Shown: one piece after another, positions 40,609 through 53,520 of the stretch
How positions within the stretch are numbered: the first letter of the stretch is position 1
Layout: each line of letters starts with the position of its first letter
Assembly (NCBI RefSeq): GCF_014200395.1
Contig: NZ_JACHBS010000001.1
Coordinates: 496,001 to 560,000, forward strand
Length of the DNA: 64,000 nucleotides
Direction of reading: 5' to 3'
Source: Microcella frigidaquae
GTDB lineage: Bacteria; Actinomycetota; Actinomycetes; Actinomycetales; Microbacteriaceae
Translations under genes and position numbers: made by a program
Notes under the pieces: model-generated
What the model was told of the DNA's origin: nothing
Seen by the model: the letters and a program-made list of their open reading frames with translations, nothing else
Databases searched by the model: none

Positions 40609-41316
40609 CTAGCTCTTCTTGGCCGCCCGCACCGCGATGATGCCGAAGCCCACCTTGTTCAGCACGTCGGCGATCACGTAGATGATCGCGGCGATGCTGA
40701 TGGCGAGGGCCGCGTCGCCGCCGCCGAGCTCGATTAACTCCTGGGTGGCGGTGCCGATGGGGTAGATCGCCCAGCCGGCGATCACGAACCACTTCATGAT
40801 CGAGACCGCGCGCTGCACGTGCGCCGGGGCGTCCGAGCCGAGCTTCAGGGTGAAGACGACGTAAACGATGTAGAGCCAGCCGAGCGTCGAGATGATGAAG
40901 AAGATGTAGTTGGTCGCGCTGCCGGGCGTGCCCACCTCACCGAGGTAGCCGAACACGATCATGATGATGTCGGCGATGATCAGCTTGGTCAGGAGGCCCT
41001 TCTTCAGGGCGCCCGCGAGAGCCACGATCAGCGCGAACTCCACGAGGAGCAGCGGCGTGGTGAGCAGCCAGTCGATGTACCGCAGCGGCAGCGTGGCGTC
41101 GACGTCGGCCGCCGTGATCTCCCCACCGGGGAACTTCACGACGTCCTTCATGACGTAGTACATGATCGCGGCGATGAACGTGATGACCGCGGCGTAGGTC
41201 GCCACCGAGCGGTGCTCGGGCTTCAGGTCATTGCGCTCGAGGTAGAACCACAGGGTGCCGGCCGCCATGGCGACGAAACCGAGCATGAAAAACGCTTGGA
41301 CGATCTGGAAGTCCAC
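40609..41316 (-). CDS. Light-driven proton-pumping microbial rhodopsin
   Basis: 235 aa from the GTG at 41316, which has GAAGGAG a few bases upstream; longer starts give a non-homologous N-terminus. Seven membrane helices. Helix C reads RYIDWLLTTPLLLVEF: Asp82 (proton acceptor), Thr86 and Glu93 (donor) form the DTE triad of outward proton pumps; Leu90 at the spectral tuning site predicts green absorption. The retinal Schiff-base Lys221 lies in IADVLNKVGFG. The helix B histidine of marine proteorhodopsin is replaced by Met52. No carotenoid or retinal synthesis genes are in this window. Confidence 0.95.
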   Translation of the reverse strand: MDFQIVQAFFMLGFVAMAAGTLWFYLERNDLKPEHRSVATYAAVITFIAAIMYYVMKDVVKFPGGEITAADVDATLPLRYIDWLLTTPLLLVEFALIVALAGALKKGLLTKLIIADIIMIVFGYLGEVGTPGSATNYIFFIISTLGWLYIVYVVFTLKLGSDAPAHVQRAVSIMKWFVIAGWAIYPIGTATQELIELGGGDAALAISIAAIIYVIADVLNKVGFGIIAVRAAKKS

Positions 41317-41652: not shown

Positions 41653-43926
41653 CTAGCCGTCCTCGCCCTCCGGAGCGGCGGGGGCGTCGCCGCCCTCGCC
41701 CTCGGTGAGCACGGGCGAGAGCGACAGCTTGCCGCGGTCGTCGGTCTTGGTGATCTCGACCAGGATCTTCTGCCCCACCGAGAGCACGTCCTCGACGTTG
41801 TCGACCCGCTTGCCGCCGGCGAGCTTGCGCACCTCGCTGATGTGCAGCAGGCCGTCCTTGCCGGGCATGAGCGAGACGAAGGCACCGAACGCCGCGAGCT
41901 TCACGACCGTGCCCAGGTACTGCTCGCCGACCTCGGGGTTGATCGGGTTGGCGATCGCGTTGACCTGCGCACGCGCGGCCTCGGCCGAGGCGCCATCGGT
42001 CGCGCCGATGTAGACGGTGCCGTCCTCCTCGATCGAGATCTGCGCGCCGGTCTCGTCCTGGATGGCGTTGATCGTCTTGCCCTTCGGGCCGATGAGCTCG
42101 CCGATCTTGTCGACCGGGATCTGCACGCTGATGACGCGCGGCGCGGTCGGGGCCATCTCGTCGGGGCCGTCGATCGCCTGGTTCATGACCGCGAGGATCG
42201 CCATGCGGGCATCCTTCGCCTGCCCCAGCGCCTGGTGCAGCACCGACGAGGGAATGCCGTCGAGCTTGGTGTCGAGCTGGATCGCCGTGACGAACTCGCT
42301 CGTGCCGGCGACCTTGAAGTCCATGTCGCCCAGCGCGTCCTCGGCGCCGAGGATGTCGGTGAGGGCCGCGTAGCGGGTCTCACCATCCACCTCGTCGCTG
42401 ATGAGGCCCATGGCGATGCCCGCGACGGGCGCCTTGAGCGGCACACCGGCGTTCAGCAGCGACAGGGTCGAGGCACACACCGAGCCCATCGACGTCGAGC
42501 CGTTCGAGCTCAGCGCCTCGGAGACCTGGCGGATCGCGTAGGGGAACTCCTCGCGGCTCGGCAGCACCGGCACGAGGGCGCGCTCGGCGAGGAAGCCGTG
42601 CCCGATCTCGCGACGCTTCGGGCTGCCGACGCGGCCGGTCTCACCAGTCGAGTAGGGCGGGAAGTTGTAGTGGTGCAGGTAGCGCTTGCTCGTCACCGGG
42701 TTGAGCGAGTCGATCTGCTGCTCCATCTTCAGCATGTTGAGCGTCGTGACACCGAGGATCTGCGTCTCGCCGCGCTGGAAGATGGCCGAGCCGTGCACGC
42801 GCGGGATCACCTGCACCTCGGCGTCGAGCGCCCGGATGTCGGCCAGGCCGCGACCGTCGATGCGCACGCCCTCGGTGAGCACGCGCGCGCGCATGATCTT
42901 CTTCGAGACCGACTTGTAGGCGGCGCCGAACTGCGACAGCGCGTCCTCCGGCAGCTCGCCGGCGGCGACCTTGGCCGCGATGGCCTCCTTGGTCGACGCC
43001 TTGAGCACGTCGTCGGCGTTCTGCCGCTCGACCTTGTCGGCGATCTGGTAGACGCGGGCGAGCTCGTCGTGCGCGACAGCGTCGACGGCGGCGTAGAGCT
43101 CGTCGCTGTAGGGCAGGAAGACCGGGTACTCCTGGATCTCCTTGGCGCTCTGCGCGGCGAGCTGCTGCTGGGCCTTCACGAGCTGCGCGAGGAACGGCTT
43201 GGCCGCCTCGAGACCCTCGGCCACGACGGCCTCGCTCGGCTTGATGGCCCCGCCCTGGATGAGGTTCCAGCTCGACTCGGTGGCCTCGGCCTCGACCATC
43301 ATGATCGCGACATCCTCGGTGCCGTCAGCCTTCGTGACGATGCGGCCGGCGACCGTGAGGTCGAAGACCGCCTCGGCCAGCTGGCTGTGCTTGGGGAACG
43401 CGACCCACTGGCCGGTGCCGTCGCTCTTCGGCATGAGCGCGAGGCGCACACCGGCGATCGGGCCGCTGAACGGCAGGCCCGAGATCTGGGTCGAGGCGCT
43501 CGCCGCGTTGATGGCGAGGGCGTCGTAGAACTCGTCGGGCGCGATGCTCAGCACGGTGATGACGATCTGCACCTCGTTGCGCAGGCCGTCGACGAACGAG
43601 GGGCGCAGCGGGCGGTCGATGAGACGGCAGACCAGGATCGCCTCGGTCGAGGGCCGCCCCTCGCGCCGGAAGAACGAGCCGGGGATCTTGCCCGCGGCGT
43701 ACGACCGCTCCTCGACATCCACCGTCAGCGGGAAGAAGTCGAAGCCGTCGCGCGGCTGCTTGCTGGCGCTCGTCGCGCTCAGCAGCATGGTCTCCTCGTC
43801 GAGGTAGGCGGCCACGGCGCCCTGCGCCTGCTGGGCCAGCCGACCCGTCTCGAAGCGGATGGTGCGGGTGCCGTACGAGCCATTGTCGATGACCGTCTCG
43901 GCGAACTTGATTTCAGGACCTTCCAC
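41653..43926 (-). CDS. pnp: Polyribonucleotide nucleotidyltransferase (PNPase)
   Basis: 757 aa. Two RNase PH domains ([40 protein letters not shown]), a KH domain ([20 protein letters not shown]) and an S1 domain ([28 protein letters not shown]). Phosphorolytic 3'-exonuclease and RNA-tailing enzyme of the degradosome. GGAAGG precedes the ATG. pnp usually follows rpsO; here about 5.2 kb with a lipoprotein cassette lies between. Confidence 0.97.
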
Positions 43927-44228: not shown

Positions 44229-44714
44229 CTAGAGCCGCCGGAATCCCGGCGCGTCATCGATGTCGACGATCGGGATCCCCAGGCTGTAAGCAAGACCCTC
44301 GAGGCGCACCGGGTCGAGGTCGGGGCTGATCGGCACGGCGCGACGCTCGCCGTCGAAGAGCCAGTAGGTCGGTGTGAGGGCCGAGTCGAGGCCGCGGCCG
44401 AGAATGTCGCGGTCGGTCACCGGCACCACGCGAGCGCCGAGCGGATCGCGCACGACGAGAGACTCGCCGTCGAAACGCACCGAGGTGCGCCAGCGAACGG
44501 TGATGACCGCGACGCTCGCGGCTCCGAGCCCGAAGGCGGCGAGCGTCAGCAGGCTCGCGATGACGCGCGGGATGCCCTCCGGAACCGCCTCCGCCAGCAG
44601 CGCGCCCGCCCCGAGCACCACGAGCACGGCGGCCACGACGAGCCGGCGCCCCCACCGCCCGACCCCGGCCCTCACCACCGGATCCGGCGGGCGCTGCGAC
44701 CCGCTCACGAGCAC
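44229..44714 (-). CDS. Membrane protein, PH-like cytoplasmic part
   Basis: 161 aa. Two hydrophobic helices (RLVVAAVLVVLGAGALLAEA and VIASLLTLAAFGLGAASVAVI) precede a beta-rich region (SVRFDGESLVVRDPLGARVVPV) like the bacterial PH-like domains of small membrane proteins. GTG start at 44714 or 44708. It is last in the lipoprotein run, 7 bp after lipoprotein 1, and may act with it. No specific family could be named. Confidence 0.72.
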   Translation of the reverse strand: MLVSGSQRPPDPVVRAGVGRWGRRLVVAAVLVVLGAGALLAEAVPEGIPRVIASLLTLAAFGLGAASVAVITVRWRTSVRFDGESLVVRDPLGARVVPVTDRDILGRGLDSALTPTYWLFDGERRAVPISPDLDPVRLEGLAYSLGIPIVDIDDAPGFRRL

Positions 44715-44721
44715 GCCGGGG

Positions 44722-45414
44722 TCATGGCCGGCCCCCGCTCATCACGGCCTCGCGCTCGGCGAGCAGCCGCTCGCTCGGCGGGCACAGCACGAGCGCCCGC
44801 TGCAGCGCCGCGGGGTCGGCGGCCAGCAGCGCGTAGGGGTTCCAGGCAGCCGTCGTCTCGAGCCGCTGGCCGAACTCCTCCGCCGACGGCAGGCTCGGCA
44901 CGACCAGGCCCGCGGCCCGGAGGCAGGGCAGCAGGCGCTGCTGCGCGTCGGCGAACCGCCAGGCCCTCTCCACCGGTCCGCTCTGCCGCAGCTCGCGCGG
45001 CTCGGCCACCCCGAACTGTGCCGTGCAACTCTCGATCGCCCAGCGGGAACGGTCGAAATCCTCCCCGACCATGCCGAAGTACGACACCGTCAACCGGTCG
45101 TCGACGCGGTCGGCCCGGATGCGCGGGTCGGCACGGTCGATGCACGCCGCGACCGCATCGGGCCAGACCTCGCGGGCGACGAGCCCCTGGAACTCGGGCA
45201 CGGGCACGCCGAGCTCGGCGATGCGCGCGGATGACGACGCCACGAAGGCGTCGAACCGCTCGCGCTCCGCGGCCTCGAGCGCCGCGCGGCGCTCGGCGAG
45301 GGAGTCGTCGAGAGTGGGGGCGGCGGGGGCGGCGGCGGCGCATCCGGAAACCAGCACGGCCAGCAGAGCGCCCGTGCAGGCGACCAGCGCGCACCGCCGG
45401 GCCGCGCGGATCAC
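44722..45414 (-). CDS. Four-cysteine lipoprotein 1 (paralogous cassette)
   Basis: 230 aa from the GTG at 45414. Signal peptide RRCALVACTGALLAVLVSGC with a lipobox ending in Cys, so it is lipid-anchored outside. The mature part keeps the four-cysteine signature of its paralogs: an AACI cysteine, SCTAQF, LLPCLRAAGL and a C-terminal NPYAL...LCPPS motif. The start overlaps the upstream paralog's stop (GTGA). This is the most intact-looking copy with lipoprotein 2. No known family or enzyme motif recognised. Confidence 0.8.
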   Translation of the reverse strand: MIRAARRCALVACTGALLAVLVSGCAAAAPAAPTLDDSLAERRAALEAAERERFDAFVASSSARIAELGVPVPEFQGLVAREVWPDAVAACIDRADPRIRADRVDDRLTVSYFGMVGEDFDRSRWAIESCTAQFGVAEPRELRQSGPVERAWRFADAQQRLLPCLRAAGLVVPSLPSAEEFGQRLETTAAWNPYALLAADPAALQRALVLCPPSERLLAEREAVMSGGRP

Positions 45415-46157
45415 GGCACCCCTCCCGAACCGGTCGGGCCCACATCGATCGACCGGATCTCCGCCGGGCCGAGCTGCGCGAGCATGCGGCCAGGGTCGGG
45501 GCACTGCGCGCGGATGCAGGCCTCGGTGACCGCGTCGGCCCCCCGCAGCTCGGCCGCGAGCCAGACGCTCTGCGTCGCCGCCAGCTCGCGGCTCGCCGAG
45601 GTCGGGAAGATCGACGCGTCGACCGCACGGTCGAGGTCGGCGACCACGAGCTCGGCACCCCAGCGCCGCGCGCACGCCGGGAGAGCGACCGTGAGCTGAT
45701 GCCGCACCCACTCCTGCTCCACGGGCCCGCCGAACGGGTACAGCCCCGTCCACGGAATGAGCGCGACCTGGCAGCGCAGCTGTGCGACCGGCAGCTGCCA
45801 GGTGGGCTCATCCTCGGGCCGCGGGAACAGCGAGACGATGCCGTTCGCCGACACCGTGCCCGCTGGCCGCTCGAGGATCCCCTCCATGCAGGCGAGCGTC
45901 TCGGGGATCGCCGACTGCTCGTCGACCCACCGCTCGAAGCGCAGCGGCGGATACTCCGCCTCCGGCCAGTCGCGCTCGATGTAGTCCTCGGTGGCGGCCG
46001 CCGCGCGCACCCAGGCGGCCGTCATCGTCAGCGAGCGCTCCGCCTGCACCTGCTCGAGACTCGGAACCTCGGGCGGCTCGGCGCAGCCGACGAGCCCCAG
46101 CAGCGACAGGGTCGCCCCGGTCGCCAGACCGGCCAGGAGCGCCGGACCGCGCCTCAC
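45411..46157 (-). CDS. Four-cysteine lipoprotein 2 (paralogous cassette)
   Basis: 248 aa from the GTG at 46157. Signal peptide GPALLAGLATGATLSLLGLVGC with a lipobox. Cysteine pattern: TLACMEG, QLRCQVALIP, LPACARRWG and a C-terminal QCPDP. A tryptophan/proline-rich middle is shared with the paralogs. It is overlapped by 4 bp on both sides (GTGA). The role is unknown; an extracytoplasmic folding domain with two disulfides is inferred. Confidence 0.8.
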   Translation of the reverse strand: MRRGPALLAGLATGATLSLLGLVGCAEPPEVPSLEQVQAERSLTMTAAWVRAAAATEDYIERDWPEAEYPPLRFERWVDEQSAIPETLACMEGILERPAGTVSANGIVSLFPRPEDEPTWQLPVAQLRCQVALIPWTGLYPFGGPVEQEWVRHQLTVALPACARRWGAELVVADLDRAVDASIFPTSASRELAATQSVWLAAELRGADAVTEACIRAQCPDPGRMLAQLGPAEIRSIDVGPTGSGGVP

Positions 46158-46873
46158 CGCGACACCTCGCCGCGGACGCGCTCGGTGGGCACGCCCGAGA
46201 CCTCCGCACCCACCGGAGACAGACCCGCGAGCAGCACCGCGGGATGCGGGCAGACCGCCTGCACCCGGCGCAGGGTCGGCGCATCGCCGCGCACAGCGGC
46301 ATAGGGATCCCAGCTCGGCGTCGACCCGCCCGCGACGATCGCGAAGGGATCGGAGGACAGCGGCTGGGCGATCACCCCCTCGCGGCGCAGGCAGGCCGGC
46401 AGCGTCTCGCGGGCGTACTGGGTGACCCACGCGATCTCGACGGGGCCCGGCTCGGCCACGGCGAAGCCGGGCGGCGGCAGGGTTCCCTGGCACAGGTAGA
46501 TCGCCAGATCGAGGTCGCGCCGCTCGGCGACCGACTGCGGCGGAGGGTCGGCGATGACCCCGGCCTCGAGGCTCACCCGCACCCGCAGGCCCGACGCCTC
46601 CGACGCGCACTGCTCGAACGCCGTGGTCCAGTAACCGGGCGCGAGCCAGGCCTCGATCGTCGGCTCGGGCAGGCGCACGCCCGGCCAGCGGTCGGTGAGG
46701 TAGCTCGCGAAGCCGGCGAGCAGCTCGTCCACGCGGGCTTCGGCCCGGTCGGCGCGCTCCTGGGCGACGGCCTCGAGCCCGAGGCTGTCGCGGTGGGGCC
46801 CGGCGCACGCCGTGAGCGCGCATCCGACGATGACGACGATCGCCGCCTAGCGGGGGGTGGATGCGGCGCTCAC
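46154..46873 (-). pseudogene. Four-cysteine lipoprotein 3, interrupted by an early amber codon
   Basis: Read from the GTG at 46873 (GTGA overlap with the upstream copy), the frame is MSAASTPR, then TAG at 46849-46847, then AAIVVIVGCALTACAG, a lipoprotein signal with lipobox, and the full four-cysteine body (EQCASEAS, YLCQG, LPACLRREG, VCPHPAVLL). Apart from the TAG, 239 codons are open. Reinitiation at GTG 46732 would lose the signal peptide. Either a recent nonsense mutation or a sequencing error; with the damage next door, decay is likelier. Confidence 0.8.
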
Positions 46874-47173
46874 CCCGCCCCCTCCAGCACCGTCTCGGGC
46901 GCCGGGCAGCGGGCCGCCGCGCGGGCCCGGTCGCCCGCCGCCTCCCCGACGAGCGCATAGGGGTCGAACGCCGCATCGGTGCGCCAGCGATCCGCGAACT
47001 CGCGCGGCCCCGGGGCGGTCGGAACCTCGTAGCCGTGCGCGAGCAGGCACGGCACGAGCGAGGCCCTCACGTACTCGAACGCCCAGGGAGCCTCGATGGC
47101 GCGCACGTCATCCTCGAACCAGGTCAGCACCGGGTAGCGGGCCTGGCAGACCCAGCCCGCCACATCGATCTCG
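46870..47173 (-). pseudogene. Four-cysteine lipoprotein 4, C-terminal piece cut off by an IS element
   Basis: The reading frame enters from the IS end and gives EIDVAGWVCQARYP, ASLVPCLLAHGYEVP, FDPYALVGEAAG and CPAPETVL, the C-terminal half of the lipoprotein family. Its first nine bases are one copy of the target duplication. Joining it to the piece at 48583-48967 after removing the IS and one duplicate restores the frame (REFFEIDVAGWVCQ). Confidence 0.85.
47165..47173. repeat. Left copy of the 8-9 bp IS target duplication
   Basis: TCGATCTCG, repeated at 48583-48591. Eight bases suffice if the final G belongs to the IS; IS256-family elements usually make 8-9 bp duplications. Confidence 0.85.
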
Positions 47174-48582
47174 CCTGAGTCCCGTGGGGTGGTGGACTTT
47201 CCGGTCCTGAGCGTCGTGTCGTTGACGTGAGGGGCCACCGTGCGATGGTCAGTGAGAACGACCAAGTTACTCACGACAGGAGATCGCACGATGGCCCTCA
47301 ATCAGTCTGCCCTGCTTCAGCTGCTCGCCGAGCTGAAACTCACCGACACCACCGACCGCATCCGTCAGATGACCGAACGGCTCTACCAAGAACTGATCGA
47401 CGCCGAAGCCGCGTCGGTGATCGGCGCCGGACCCTACGAGCGCACCGCCGAGCGCGTTGCGACTCGCAACGGGGCGAGGTTGCGCACCCTGTCGACCACT
47501 GCGGGAGATCTGGAGTTGCGGATCCCGAAGCTGCGGGCCGGCAGTTTCTTTCCGTCGTTGTTGGAGCGGCGCCGCCGGGTCGATCAGGCGCTGTTCGCCG
47601 TGGTGATGGAGGCCTACCTGCACGGCGTCTCCACCCGCAAGGTTGACGATCTGGTCAAGGCGCTCGGCGCCGACACGGGCATCTCGAAGTCCGAGGTGTC
47701 TCGCATCTGCGCCGGCCTGGACGCGACGGTTGCGGCATTCCGCGACCGATCCCTGTCTCAGATCGCCTACCCCTACGTCTTCTTGGACGCCACCTATTGC
47801 AAGGTTCGCATCGACGGGCGGGTGGTGTCTCAAGCGGTTGTGGTCGCGATCGGGATCACCGCTGACGGGCACCGTCAGGTGCTCGGCTTTGACGTGGGCG
47901 ACAGCGAAACGGAGGAGTTCTGGAAAGCGTTCCTGCGATCGTTGAAAGCTCGAGGGCTTTCCGGGGTGAAGCTGGTGATCTCCGACGCGCACGCGGGTTT
48001 GAAAGCAGCTATCGCGGTGGTGGTGCAGGGAGCGGCCTGGCAGCGGTGCCGCGTGCATTTCATGCGCAACGTGCTCACCGTCCTGCCTAAGGGTCGGCAG
48101 GAGATGGTGGCCTCGATCATCCGCACGATCTTCGCCCAACCCGACGCTGAGCATATTGACGCGCAGTTCGAGGAGGTTGCTCGCATGATCGACCGCGTTC
48201 ACCCCAAGGCTGCCCAGATGCTCCACGATGCCCGAGCCGACGTGCTGGCGTTCAAGCACTTCCCCGCCCGGCATTGGCGGCAGATCTGGTCGACGAATCC
48301 GCTGGAACGGCTGAACCGTGAGATCAAACGTCGCACCGACGTCGTCGGAGTGTTCCCGAACACTGCCAGCCTGCTGCGCCTGACCGGCGCCGTTTTGATC
48401 GAGCAGCACGACGAATGGGAAGCTGGCGACCGCCGTTACTTTTCCGAAGCGTCCATGGCCGAACTCACCGCCACCAGCTCGGTCGAGGACGCGGTGATGC
48501 TGCCCGAGATCACGGCCGCCTAGACTGCAGCCAGCTGATCATCGCGTGGAAACGAAAGACCACCACTCAGCGGGACGTGGCC
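47174..48582 (+). mobile_element. IS256-family insertion sequence
   Basis: About 1.41 kb, one transposase gene, imperfect terminal inverted repeats: 23-nt blocks at 47179-47201 and 48554-48576 match at 19 positions (both start GTCCCG and contain GTGGTGG and CTTTC). Flanked by TCGATCTCG on both sides. It lies inside a lipoprotein gene, which reads in frame once the element is removed. The intact ORF and clean duplication suggest a recent insertion. Confidence 0.93.
47291..48523 (+). CDS. IS256-family (Mutator-type) transposase
   Basis: 410 aa. DDE catalytic residues visible at Asp166 (VFLDATYCKV), Asp232 (ISDAHAGL) and Glu339 (STNPLERLNREIKRR); the family CxxH motif is QRCRVHF at 253-256. N-terminal helix-turn-helix region TRKVDDLVKALGADTGISKS. 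Base composition is less GC-extreme than the flanking genes. Intact, so the element may still be mobile. Closest to the IS1081/IS1554-like group by general appearance, which I cannot verify. Confidence 0.95.
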   Translation: MALNQSALLQLLAELKLTDTTDRIRQMTERLYQELIDAEAASVIGAGPYERTAERVATRNGARLRTLSTTAGDLELRIPKLRAGSFFPSLLERRRRVDQALFAVVMEAYLHGVSTRKVDDLVKALGADTGISKSEVSRICAGLDATVAAFRDRSLSQIAYPYVFLDATYCKVRIDGRVVSQAVVVAIGITADGHRQVLGFDVGDSETEEFWKAFLRSLKARGLSGVKLVISDAHAGLKAAIAVVVQGAAWQRCRVHFMRNVLTVLPKGRQEMVASIIRTIFAQPDAEHIDAQFEEVARMIDRVHPKAAQMLHDARADVLAFKHFPARHWRQIWSTNPLERLNREIKRRTDVVGVFPNTASLLRLTGAVLIEQHDEWEAGDRRYFSEASMAELTATSSVEDAVMLPEITAA

Positions 48583-48591
48583 TCGATCTCG
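48583..48591. repeat. Right copy of the IS target duplication
   Basis: TCGATCTCG, identical to 47165-47173. Confidence 0.85.
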
Positions 48592-48967
48592 AAGAACTCG
48601 CGCGTGCTCTGCACCCGTGCGCCGCTGTAGTCGAGGCGCTCGCCGTCATCAGCGGGCCGCACCCCCGGAAAGCCCGACTCGCCGAGGCAGCGGGCCATCG
48701 CCGGGCCCCACTCCCCCACCGTCACCCAGCGCACGATCGGCTCGTCGGGCAGCGCGACCGGGCCCCACTTGTCGCGCAGGAAGACGGCGGCCCGGTCGAG
48801 AGCGGCCTCGTGCGCCTGCGCCGCCGCCGCATCGCGCTCGGCGCGCACCTCCGCGACGCCCCGACGCCGACCGCGGCATCGGCGCACCCCGCCAGCCCAG
48901 CGGCGCCCACCGCGGCGACAACGAGCGCGACGAGGCGCAACGCGGCGGCGACGGCGCGGGCGGGCAT
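48583..48967 (-). pseudogene. Four-cysteine lipoprotein 4, N-terminal piece, also frameshifted
   Basis: ATG 48967 begins a lipoprotein signal (MPARAVAAALRLVALVVAAV, then GAAGLAGC). After ADAAVGVG the frame breaks at a run of four C (48859-48862, G on the coding strand); adding one base continues into VAEVRAERDAAAAQAHEAAL and DKWGPVALPDEPIVRW, MARCLGESG, up to the IS. With that base restored and the IS removed the gene would encode 226 aa, close to its paralogs. Two independent lesions argue for a dead gene. Confidence 0.83.
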
Positions 48968-49125: not shown

Positions 49126-49395
49126 CTAGCGGCGCAGCCCCAGGCGCTCGATCAGCGAGCGGTAGCGCTCGATGTCGACGTCGGCCAGGTAGCCCAGCAG
49201 ACGACGACGCTGACCGACCAGCAGCAGCAGGCCACGACGCGAGTGGTGGTCGTGCTTGTGCTGCTTCAGGTGCTCGGTGAGGTCTTTGATGCGACGCGTC
49301 AGCATCGCGACCTGGACCTCGGGGGATCCGGTGTCACCGGGGTGGGTTGCGTACTCGTCGATGATCGCCTTCTTGACGTCTGCTTCCAGTGCCAT
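49126..49395 (-). CDS. rpsO: 30S ribosomal protein S15
   Basis: 89 aa, exact family length. Helical protein with [35 protein letters not shown] and RRRLLGYL. Binds 16S rRNA centrally. AAGGGGG precedes the ATG at 49395. It is normally paired with pnp; the pair here is separated by the lipoprotein cassette. The 104 bp upstream holds no gene and no certain promoter. Confidence 0.98.
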
Positions 49396-50124: not shown

Positions 50125-53100
50125 TCACGCAACCTCCGCCGTCTGGCGCACACGGCGCAGCACCACGATCAACTCTGCGACCTGCTCTTCGCTGAACAGG
50201 GCCTGCGGGCCCGTCGGCGCGAGGCCGGTGAAGGGGTCTTCGAAGAGCAGCCCCGGCTCGACGATGCCCCGCATGGTGAGCTGCGACACCAGCAGGTCGA
50301 GGAACGCCAGCTGATTGGCGGTGAAGGTCTCGCCGGCGATGAAGTCGGCCAACGCATCCTGAGCAGCGGAGCGATCGAGGCCGAGCAAAGAGCGCACGAA
50401 GAGACCGAGGCCGTCGGCCTCAGTGGTGGCGAGCGCCAGCTCGCCCTCGGTGAACTCGCCACTCTCGCGCATGATCGCGTCGAGCTGCTCGATGTCGAGC
50501 GCCGTCAGCTGCTTACCGTGCCGAACCTTGTACAGCACCGCGTCGTCGGCGTGCGCGCGCAGAAAGGCGAGGGCCTTCGAGCGGAAGCGCTCACGATCGA
50601 CCCCGGGGTTCGTGGGCACGACCGTCACATCAGAGACCGGGCCGAGGGTGTCTTCGAAGTCGGTGTAGATGAGCGGCCTCTCGCGAGCGTCGATCAGGCG
50701 CACGAGGTCGCGCAGACGCACGCGCATCTGCTCGAGCATCGGCACCGTCACATCGACCCACCAGTCGATAGTGGCGACGCGGTCGATGAACTCGAGCTGC
50801 GAGGCGATGGCGGGGATCGTCTTCTGATGGGCCAATGCGTCCGCGATCCCCCGTACCCCGTTGCCCACCGCCGTGAGCGACGCCGCGTCACGGTTGAGCA
50901 CCGCCAGCTGCGCCCGCAGCGCGAGCAGGTCGAAACGCTTGGCCGCCTCGTCGGTGTCGTCGGCGTCCGCCGCCGACGGCAACGCCCCGAGTTCGGCCGC
51001 TACCGCGTACTGATCGTCATCGAGCGCCAGCCATGACTCCCCCGCGGCGAAGTGCTCGACCCTCCGGCGGTGCGGCCGCACGAGCACGTTGTCGAGCGAC
51101 ATTCCCGCAACACGATCGTGCAACCGCGCCGCAACGAGCTCGCGCAGAGCGGCGAGCTCGGGGTCGGGGTGAGCCCCTCCGCCGGACGCCTGGTCGATCG
51201 TGCGCATCAGCTCGACCCGCGCCGACACGAGCCGCTCGGTCAGCGAGGCCGTGCGGCTGGAACGGTCGGGCGGCAGCTGCTGGTTGAAGTACTCGATGTT
51301 CTGGCAGACGTCGAAGATCACGAAGTCTTTCTTGTCGTCACCAGGGCCGTAGAGCTCGGGCCGCAGCCGCGTGCCCCGCCCGACCATCTGCCAGTACTTC
51401 GTCTTCGAGTGCACCTCTTTGAAGAAGACGAGGTTCACGACGTCGGGCACGTCGATGCCGGTGTCGAGCATGTCCACCGACACCGCGATCTGCGGCAGGC
51501 GGTCGGTGGTCGAGAAGTCGTCGATCAGGCTCTGCGCGTAAGTGACCTGGTGGGTGATGATGCGCGCGAAGTGCCCGGCGTAGTGCGGGTAGTTGGCGTC
51601 GAAACGCTCGACGATGAACTGCGCGTGCCGCTGACTCTTCGCGAAGATGATCGTCTTGCCGAGCAGGTCACCGCCGTTCACGCGTCGACCCTCGGTCATG
51701 AGCACCTCGAGCACCTTGTCGACGGTGTCGGCGTTGAAGAGCCAGTTGTTCACGGCGGTCGCGTCGACCTCGTCGGGCACGTCGCCATCCGCCCAGTCGA
51801 GCAGATCCCACTGCTCCTTCTCGTCATCCGAGAGGTCGTCGTAGCGGATGCCCTGCCGCACGAACGACGTCGCCACCGCCTTGCCGACCGGGGGCACGAG
51901 GTATCCGTCGGCGATCGCGTCGGTGAGGTCGTACGAGTCGGTCGGCACCCCGTCTTCGAGCCCGAAAAGGCTGTACGTGTTGTGGTCGACCTCGTCTTTC
52001 GGTGTGGCGGTCAGGCCGACGATGTGGGCGTCGAAGTACTCGAAGATCGCGCCGTACTTTTGGTACACCGAGCGGTGCGCCTCGTCGATGACGATGAGGT
52101 CGAAGTGGTTGGGGCCAAACCTCCGAACGCCCTCGACGACCTCGTTCATCAGACCCATCATCGTCGGGTAGGTCGAGACCATCACCCGGCCGTCGACACC
52201 CTTCTCGGTGACCAGGTTGACGGGGCTCGACGCGGGCAGGTGCTGCTTGAAGGCTGCGGTCGCCTGGTTGACGAGCGCCACCCGGTCGGCAAGGAAGAGC
52301 ACACGCTTGACCCACCCGGCCCGCATCAGCAGGTCAGTGAGCGCGATCACGGTGCGGGTCTTGCCCGACCCGGTGGCCATCACGAGCAGAGCGCGCCTCT
52401 GCTGCTGCTCGAACACCTCGCCCACTCGGCGAATCGCCCGCTGCTGGTATGGCCGCTCGACGATGCGATCATCGATCGGGATGCTCGCGAGCGGCTGCCG
52501 CGTGCTGCGCCGCTGCACGGCGAGGGCGAGCTGGTCGCGCGTCGCGAACCCCTGCACCGGGCGGGGCGGGTAGAGGGTGTCGTCCCAGAGCCAGTGCTCG
52601 TATCCGTTGGTGTAGTAGATGATCGGCCGCTGTCCGTACCTGCGCTCGAGCGCGTCGGCGTAGAGCTTCGCCTGCTGCTGCCCGACCTGCGGGTCTTTAC
52701 GCGTGCGCTTGGCTTCGACCACGGCGAGGGGCATCCCGTCGGCTCCCCACAGCACGTAGTCGACGAACCCGACCCCGCCGGGCGAGGAGTTGGGCATGCC
52801 CGACACCTCGAACTCGCGGTCGCGCGGGTCGCCGAGCGGCCATCCCGCCTCCGCCAGCAGGAGGTCGATGAAGGCATCGCGCGTCGCTGCTTCGTCGTAG
52901 TCGTGCGTGTCGACCAGAGCAGCAGCGGCCTGCTTGGCGGCGGCGACCTCTGCCCGCGCCTGCTCGAGCGCGGCGGCAAGCGCGGCATTGTCGGCGCGGG
53001 CGGCTTCGAGCGCCGCATCCTGCGCCGCCAGCTGCTCGGTGAGAGCCTGCAGCTCGGCGCGGGTCTTGGCGGCGATGCCGGGTTGCGGTCGCGGAATGAG

Positions 53101-53520
53101 CGCGGCATCGAACGCTCGGCCGGCCGCGGGGCGCTGCGCCACGTCAGCGGCGTACTGAGTGGCGAACCAGAACAGCACGTGGAAGAGTTCGCGCACGACG
53201 GGCACACTCTGCGCCTCGGTATAGCCACCCGAGCGATGCACGGCCTCGTTGCCGCGCCGCCGAATGATCTGCATCTTGGTCACAACGACCGGCGGTACGA
53301 GGCGGGTGAAGGTCGGCTCGTGCAGGCGGGCGCTGAGGTCGCGCTGATAGGGCTCGCGCAACGCGGTGTCGTACTCGTACATCCACTCGACGAGCAACTC
53401 GAGCGCGCGGCGCGCGTAGAACGACGAAGTGCGGGGGTCGCGAGCGGCATAGCCTTCCGCGCGCCGCGCCTCGGCCGCGATCGGCGCGAAACGCTCGCTC
53501 AGGAATTCGAAGTTGCTCAC
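50125..53520 (-). CDS. hsdR: Type I restriction enzyme subunit R (HsdR)
   Basis: 1131 aa. N-terminal DUF4145-like helical domain ([20 protein letters not shown]), a coiled coil near 160-210, a nuclease domain with the [10 protein letters not shown]...[10 protein letters not shown] pattern, a SF2 motor ([59 protein letters not shown]), and a C-terminal helical domain for M/S contact. Translocates and cuts unmethylated DNA. It lies about 3.9 kb from hsdS, with five genes between hsdS and hsdR. Confidence 0.94.

Follow-up and report, generated by a model that had tools for sequence, protein, structure and literature searches.

The stretch of 64,000 nucleotides from Microcella frigidaquae analysed here (contig NZ_JACHBS010000001.1, positions 496,001 to 560,000), which we call the window, carries an array of four related lipoprotein genes between rpsO and pnp. 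The genes are all located on the minus strand and were lettered A, B, C, and D from the rpsO side. They belong to a family of four-cysteine lipoproteins that also has dispersed members elsewhere, some of which lie beside the genes of a putative exporter. The array and its boundaries comprise the following features.

41653..43926, minus strand: pnp (polynucleotide phosphorylase), the downstream boundary of the array, identified by its open reading frame, RNase_PH matches, and the same order in relatives.
44229..44714, minus strand: 161-amino-acid membrane protein after the array, with no Pfam family over the cut-off (DUF202, E-value 0.47).
44722..45414, minus strand: gene D, intact lipoprotein of 230 amino acids, orthogroup D.
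45411..46157, minus strand: gene C, intact lipoprotein of 248 amino acids, orthogroup C, with a GTGA overlap with D.
46154..46873, minus strand: gene B, pseudogene with an in-frame TAG before the lipobox and the remaining frame open, with a GTGA overlap with C.
46870..47172, minus strand: 3' part of gene A, downstream of the inserted element, with a GTGA overlap with B.
47165..47172: left copy of the target-site duplication TCGATCTC.
47173..48582, plus strand: IS256-family insertion sequence of 1,410 base pairs (bp), with a transposase reading frame at about 47291-48523.
48583..48590: right copy of the target-site duplication TCGATCTC.
48583..48967, minus strand: 5' part of gene A, frameshifted, with the lipobox and the remainder (open reading frame 48567-48887) in different frames.
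49126..49395, minus strand: rpsO, the upstream boundary of the array, identified by its open reading frame and an rpsO search.

We regard this gene anatomy, together with the family assignment, as nearly certain. An earlier note on this DNA had described four paralogous genes for lipoproteins of 226-248 amino acids between rpsO and pnp, joined by GTGA overlaps and built as one translation unit. The four paralogues were indeed found there on the minus strand, cross-matching in searches, and the overlaps are present at all three junctions (positions 45411, 46154, and 46870). However, only C and D are intact. In B, the TAG comes after eight codons, inside the signal peptide and ahead of the lipobox. 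Gene A spans positions 48967 to 46870 and is split at 47173-48582 by the IS256-family element, inserted in the opposite orientation; the element lies within the very interval described in the note (44722..48967) but had gone unmentioned. As a second lesion, the frame of A changes between the lipobox and the rest of the 5' part. As they stand in the window genome, A and B cannot yield a lipoprotein. A single translation unit fits the intact arrays of relatives, but not the window genome with its two broken genes.

The ratio of nonsynonymous to synonymous substitution rates (dN/dS) was computed against G011, a species of the genus in which all four copies are open. The two pieces of A gave 0.28 and 0.31, the open part of B 0.26, C 0.26, and D 0.35; the neighbouring 161-amino-acid membrane protein and pnp gave 0.20 and 0.05, respectively. 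The 3' part of A is 76% identical over 103 amino acids to its G011 orthologue, with a few of these residues inside the element. The low dN/dS of A and B suggests that both were lost recently, and the array of the window strain is probably decaying, caught midway with C and D still intact and constrained. The stop codon of B and the frameshift of A could instead be sequencing errors, which would leave A as the only truly broken gene, disrupted by the insertion sequence. The dN/dS values of A and B, as low as those of C and D, would agree with such errors, as would a near-identical intact B from other sequence data (P0098), but recent loss predicts the same pattern, and an insertion with a target duplication cannot be a base-calling artefact. 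We consider sequencing errors a rather improbable explanation; the insertion in A is secure, unlike the other two lesions.

The transposase of the inserted element matched PF00872 with an E-value of 7.6e-139 and scored 366.9 bits against NF033543, above the curated cut-off of 150, which places the element in the IS256 family. Its terminal inverted arms (47179-47201 and 48554-48576) match at 83%, and the 8-bp target duplication TCGATCTC stands on each side. The Mutator-type transposase, the inverted-repeat ends, and the 8-bp target duplication are all as in other members of the IS256 family, from which nothing notable distinguishes this ordinary, recently multiplied element. Seven further fetched copies were identical across the 1,410 bp, with a direct repeat at the ends of six (none in L005). 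A search of the genome (2.55 Mb) returned 10 other near-full-length copies with about 100% identity and several pieces, together with a related element present in four copies (74% identity). The IS256-family copies, as judged from their identity, point to a recent burst of transposition.

The four array genes are diverged, with mostly 20-30% identity between pairs from different orthogroups. Their relatedness is not due to chance: D alone as a query in the window genome found both B, with an E-value of 1.5e-9, and the 3' part of A, with 1.7e-10, and the G011 orthologues of A, B, and C cross-matched other members with E-values from 3e-8 to 9e-14. The lipobox and the four-cysteine plan with the motifs described in the earlier note proved to be conserved across the family. 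In the aligned relatives, each of the four ecto-cysteines was found in 69/69 and the lipobox cysteine, preceded by G, A, or S, in 67/68; an invariant glycine sits five residues after the third cysteine in these relatives, and the signal peptide and lipobox can be seen in C and D. When the set was widened to 144 sequences, cysteines numbered 141, 144, 142, and 133 in the four columns, the exceptions being mostly gaps in truncated matches. No paired cysteine losses that might reveal disulfide partners were found in the 144-sequence set. Two disulfides are probably formed among the four invariant cysteines, and the family proteins of the window organism are predicted to be lipid-anchored.

The family could not be assigned to any known one, as the note had also concluded: the array proteins had no match in Pfam or NCBIfam at an E-value of 1 or in PADLOC at 0.001, and a PDB profile search at an E-value of 1 returned no relative. 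The AlphaFold models of D and one dispersed relative, with predicted local distance difference test (pLDDT) scores of 91.2 and 94.5, have a common order of elements, in line with the shared fold that the note would have counted as support. Comparisons of both models using Foldseek and VIA-align gave weak partial matches only, over a small alpha/beta core at residues 53-112 approximately, including the copper chaperone Atx1 and the C-terminal domain of MamM. We claim no fold name from these comparisons, in which a missing match shows nothing.

Among 60 relatives, the D query matched 23 genomes, none of them outside the window's genus. A complete or partial array was located between rpsO and pnp in 22 of the 26 genomes of the genus, with four copies in 6, three in 10, two in 2, one in 3, and a cut by the contig end in 1; one flank was unseen in 3/22 (L042 without pnp on the contig, L045 without rpsO, and L056 fetched without rpsO). 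The six four-member genomes are the window genome, with its two broken members, and five relatives (L042, L043, L044, L048, and L049), in which the cassette of four recurs. Three genomes (G003, G018, and G021) gave no family match, and one (G012, 71% complete) had a dispersed member only. The gene for the 161-amino-acid membrane protein adjoins the array in 21 of the 22 array loci, including the window, with L056 as the exception. In a FastTree tree of 81 sequences, of which the deep branches are weakly supported and the midpoint root is arbitrary, the orthogroups A-D are separate and members from the same position group across species. This grouping suggests that the duplications predate much of the genus and that losses followed later, making the array old by the evidence of the tree.

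Outside the genus, the family is patchy. With a profile built from six dispersed members, matches were obtained in 29 of 120 Microbacteriaceae genomes, corresponding to 24 of 85 genera; a wider profile matched 11 of 296 genomes of the class. When the coordinates of rpsO and pnp were taken from the same 120 genomes, members were found inside the rpsO-pnp interval in 5 of the 84 other sampled genera (G069, G085, G090, G114, and G123) and were confirmed on fetched intervals; uniform placement would lead one to expect about 0.06 interval matches for these five genomes, which were picked post hoc. The 20 Microbacteriaceae rpsO-pnp intervals that were fetched, chosen to include those five, contained members in only those five. 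With the 22 arrays of the genus and these five other genera, rpsO-pnp emerges as a site of the lipoprotein family in several genera of one bacterial family. In Microbacteriaceae, rpsO-pnp is a variable spot. The interval can be as short as a few hundred bases or as long as tens of kilobases, and its content, varying between genera, includes glutamine synthetase, luciferase-like, and DarT-like genes. In other families of the class, rpsO and pnp were adjacent with no such gene between them in 20/20 fetched loci, drawn from 59 genomes with an rpsO match; mycobacteria may not be represented among these 20. The note had considered the array as a possible expansion of the lppU locus of Mycobacterium tuberculosis, where lppU lies between rpsO and gpsI (pnp). 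LppU is alike in its placement, as a lipoprotein gene between the same two genes. The 20 loci without such a gene make an independent insertion likelier than an expanded LppU locus within that sample.

A functional context for the family is offered by its dispersed members. In four loci of the genus (L066, L067, L069, and L058), dispersed members flank a module composed of a PG_binding_1 protein as the putative adaptor, an ATP-binding cassette (ABC) ATPase, and an FtsX permease. We fetched 40 regions outside the genus around profile matches, chosen by eye from 74 matches (nine of them in the window's genome). The full module was present in 19 of the 40, including four separate loci (L146-L149) of one genome from another family of the order (G037) and three loci (L145, L152, and L154) of one family outside the order (f38). 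By comparison, none of the 15 rpsO-pnp intervals without a member carried the full module (an ABC match alone was found in two), nor did the five rpsO-pnp intervals with a member in other genera. Of the 19 regions, 12 have the lipoprotein gene upstream of the adaptor gene on the same strand (at 116-680 bp), 3 have it upstream but on the opposite strand, and 4 have it downstream. According to simple gene models of L146, L147, and L148, adjacent module genes overlap briefly, as do the lipoprotein and adaptor genes in L147 and L148. The reverse search with the adaptor matched 49/120 genomes, and a member was present in the fetched flanks of 17 of the 30 returned adaptor loci, as a weak match in two (E-values of 3e-4 and 4.5e-4).

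The same association was observed within the genus, where 8/26 genomes have an adaptor match. Five of these matches are strong (E-value below 1e-80) and come exclusively from genomes with dispersed members; with the three weak ones (G008, G015, and G019) set aside before the count, a strong match was present in 5/7 genomes with a dispersed member versus 0/19 without one (p = 3e-4, relatedness ignored). In one genome (G014), the adaptor and members are on one contig. The two dispersed-member genomes without the module are G000 and G016. At the corresponding place in G000, the genes for the lipoprotein, a PIN protein, and an amidohydrolase are accompanied by IS21-type genes and a further transposase, and the module may have been lost from this genome. 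In the window's own genome, a single dispersed member (L065, about 1,057,430-1,058,002) stands beside IS21-type and other transposase genes, and the exporter modules of L067 and L069 lie near the same amidohydrolase gene as this member. Other scanned neighbours of members vary, including fumarase and UvrA. The linked ATPase obtained its best NCBIfam score against FtsE, with 176.7 bits below the cut-off of 264.85. A lactococcin 972-type bacteriocin exporter (TIGR03608) was rejected, with 166.8 bits against a cut-off of 254.85. The co-location with the module, in 19/40 regions and the four loci of the genus, is what a component of a MacAB/YknXYZ-like exporter would display, and an exporter-linked role of the dispersed members is reasonably probable.

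The sequences show the family, its paralogy, decay, constraint, conservation, and position, and the genomic link of the dispersed members, whereas the function is inferred. An accessory-lipoprotein role appears to be the most likely original one, because dispersed members often have a peptidoglycan-binding protein, a LolD/MacB-like ATPase, and an FtsX-type permease as neighbours. We propose, with a probability of about one half, that the family consists of accessory lipoproteins of a MacAB/YknXYZ-like exporter and that the rpsO-pnp array is a free-standing branch of it. The intact protein would be exported, cut at the lipobox, and lipid-anchored on the outer face of the membrane, where a small alpha/beta core (helix-strand-strand-helix) with further helices would be stapled by two disulfides. 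Originally an accessory lipoprotein of the exporter, it might capture peptides or other envelope-active compounds at the surface of the membrane and pass them to the adaptor, or shield the membrane from them. The array would be a derived branch doing the same without its own transporter, as diverged surface binders, and the loss of single members might be tolerated because each copy would have its own ligand. The tree does not decide whether the array or the dispersed branch is older. A bolder version is rather doubtful: the family would provide the fourth subunit of an undescribed kind of actinobacterial exporter (with the adaptor, ATPase, and permease) and, in Microbacteriaceae, would repeatedly have escaped its transporter into rpsO-pnp arrays of free-standing, disulfide-stapled surface binders protecting the membrane from specific peptides.

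Several observations weigh against the exporter proposal. In 20 of the 40 regions, a dispersed member is present without the module, and one more (L157) is itself an rpsO-pnp interval; with L157 set aside, the contrast between 19/39 and 0/15 gives a Fisher p of 4e-4, in which the controls are rpsO-pnp intervals rather than random stretches and related genomes are not independent samples. No member was found in the flanks of 13 of the 30 adaptor loci, two of which have one just outside. The four adaptors scanned by Pfam have PG_binding_1 only and no HlyD-type domain. In L065, L068, and L069, a PIN-domain gene adjoins the dispersed member, which fits other explanations. As to the array itself, the window genome has no adaptor match, and its sole FtsX-domain match is the cell-division FtsX (NF038346, 367.8 bits versus 250). 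With neither an adaptor nor a permease other than FtsX, the array would work alone or with something else, and it can hardly serve such an exporter in this genome. An ABC ATPase lies between rpsO and the array in five loci (L046, L047, L049, L050, and L056), accompanied in L046, the only such locus scanned by Pfam, by a MacB-type permease and a TetR regulator; L053 has a weaker ABC ATPase match beyond pnp. The full module was found at no array locus, and the array was rejected as a component of such an exporter. A role of the array itself in surface binding or protection is tentative.

Other functions have been weighed against the same data. The array proteins might be immunity or decoy lipoproteins against secreted toxins or bacteriocins of neighbours, acting without a transporter, with duplication, divergence, and pseudogenes tracking changing toxins. 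The low identity between orthogroups, copy numbers from 1 to 4, the recent loss of two members in the window strain, and the persistence of the array without a recognised exporter would all suit such a role. Yet the array members form conserved orthogroups under purifying selection, not a fast-changing repertoire, and no secreted toxin was recognised among the neighbours scanned. The toxin-like genes that do occur are a PIN gene beside three dispersed copies, possibly of the VapC type, and a DarT-like gene 4.9 kb from the member in L085; PIN- and DarT-like kinds act inside the cell. We consider an immunity function unlikely.

Less likely still is a role in envelope maintenance, as structural or signalling partners in wall assembly with an FtsX-type complex, here perhaps FtsEX. 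The best score of the linked ATPase against FtsE, albeit below the cut-off, the peptidoglycan-binding domain in the module, and FtsX as the only such permease found in the window genome speak for it. FtsEX is widespread, whereas the family occurs in only 29/120 Microbacteriaceae genomes and 11/296 across the class. The four invariant cysteines and the tandem divergent copies, as well as an alpha/beta core with Atx1 and the MamM C-terminal domain among its weak fold matches, would also be consistent with lipoproteins binding small molecules or cysteine-ligated metals, the copies being specialised by ligand. This last function seems to us the least probable of those considered.

The surroundings of the array in the window also include a bacteriorhodopsin-like protein just past pnp (40612-41316; PF01036, E-value 4e-45) and, upstream of rpsO, a protein like the R subunit of type I restriction systems (50125-53520; HSDR_N, ResIII, and EcoEI_R_C).

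The exporter link gives an unnamed lipoprotein family with four invariant cysteines a testable context, in which its members may be additional subunits of MacAB-like pumps of the Gram-positive actinobacteria. Among the papers found in our literature searches, no title or abstract described an exporter from actinobacteria or Gram-positive bacteria that combines a peptidoglycan-binding partner with a lipoprotein, which does not prove its absence. The closest known system is YknWXYZ of Bacillus, described as a MacAB-like pump of four components that confers protection from a peptide toxin and has an adaptor that binds peptidoglycan (PMC5985334, PMC4887032). The loci of the dispersed members, but not the array, resemble it in having a separate ABC ATPase, an FtsX/MacB-type permease, and an extracytoplasmic adaptor with a peptidoglycan-binding domain, together with a proposed fourth accessory protein. 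The fourth protein of the Bacillus pump, YknW, of which the role is called enigmatic (PMC5985334), is a Yip1-type membrane protein according to these sources, unlike the four-cysteine lipoprotein here. The adaptor of our module also differs, being a PG_binding_1 protein without a HlyD match, and the rpsO-pnp array has no such exporter alongside. A second comparison is with AS-48EFGH of Enterococcus faecalis: its extra protein, unlike ours, is a predicted four-helix membrane protein, but it likewise joins a MacB-type transporter and an adaptor in protection against a peptide bacteriocin (PMC5985334).

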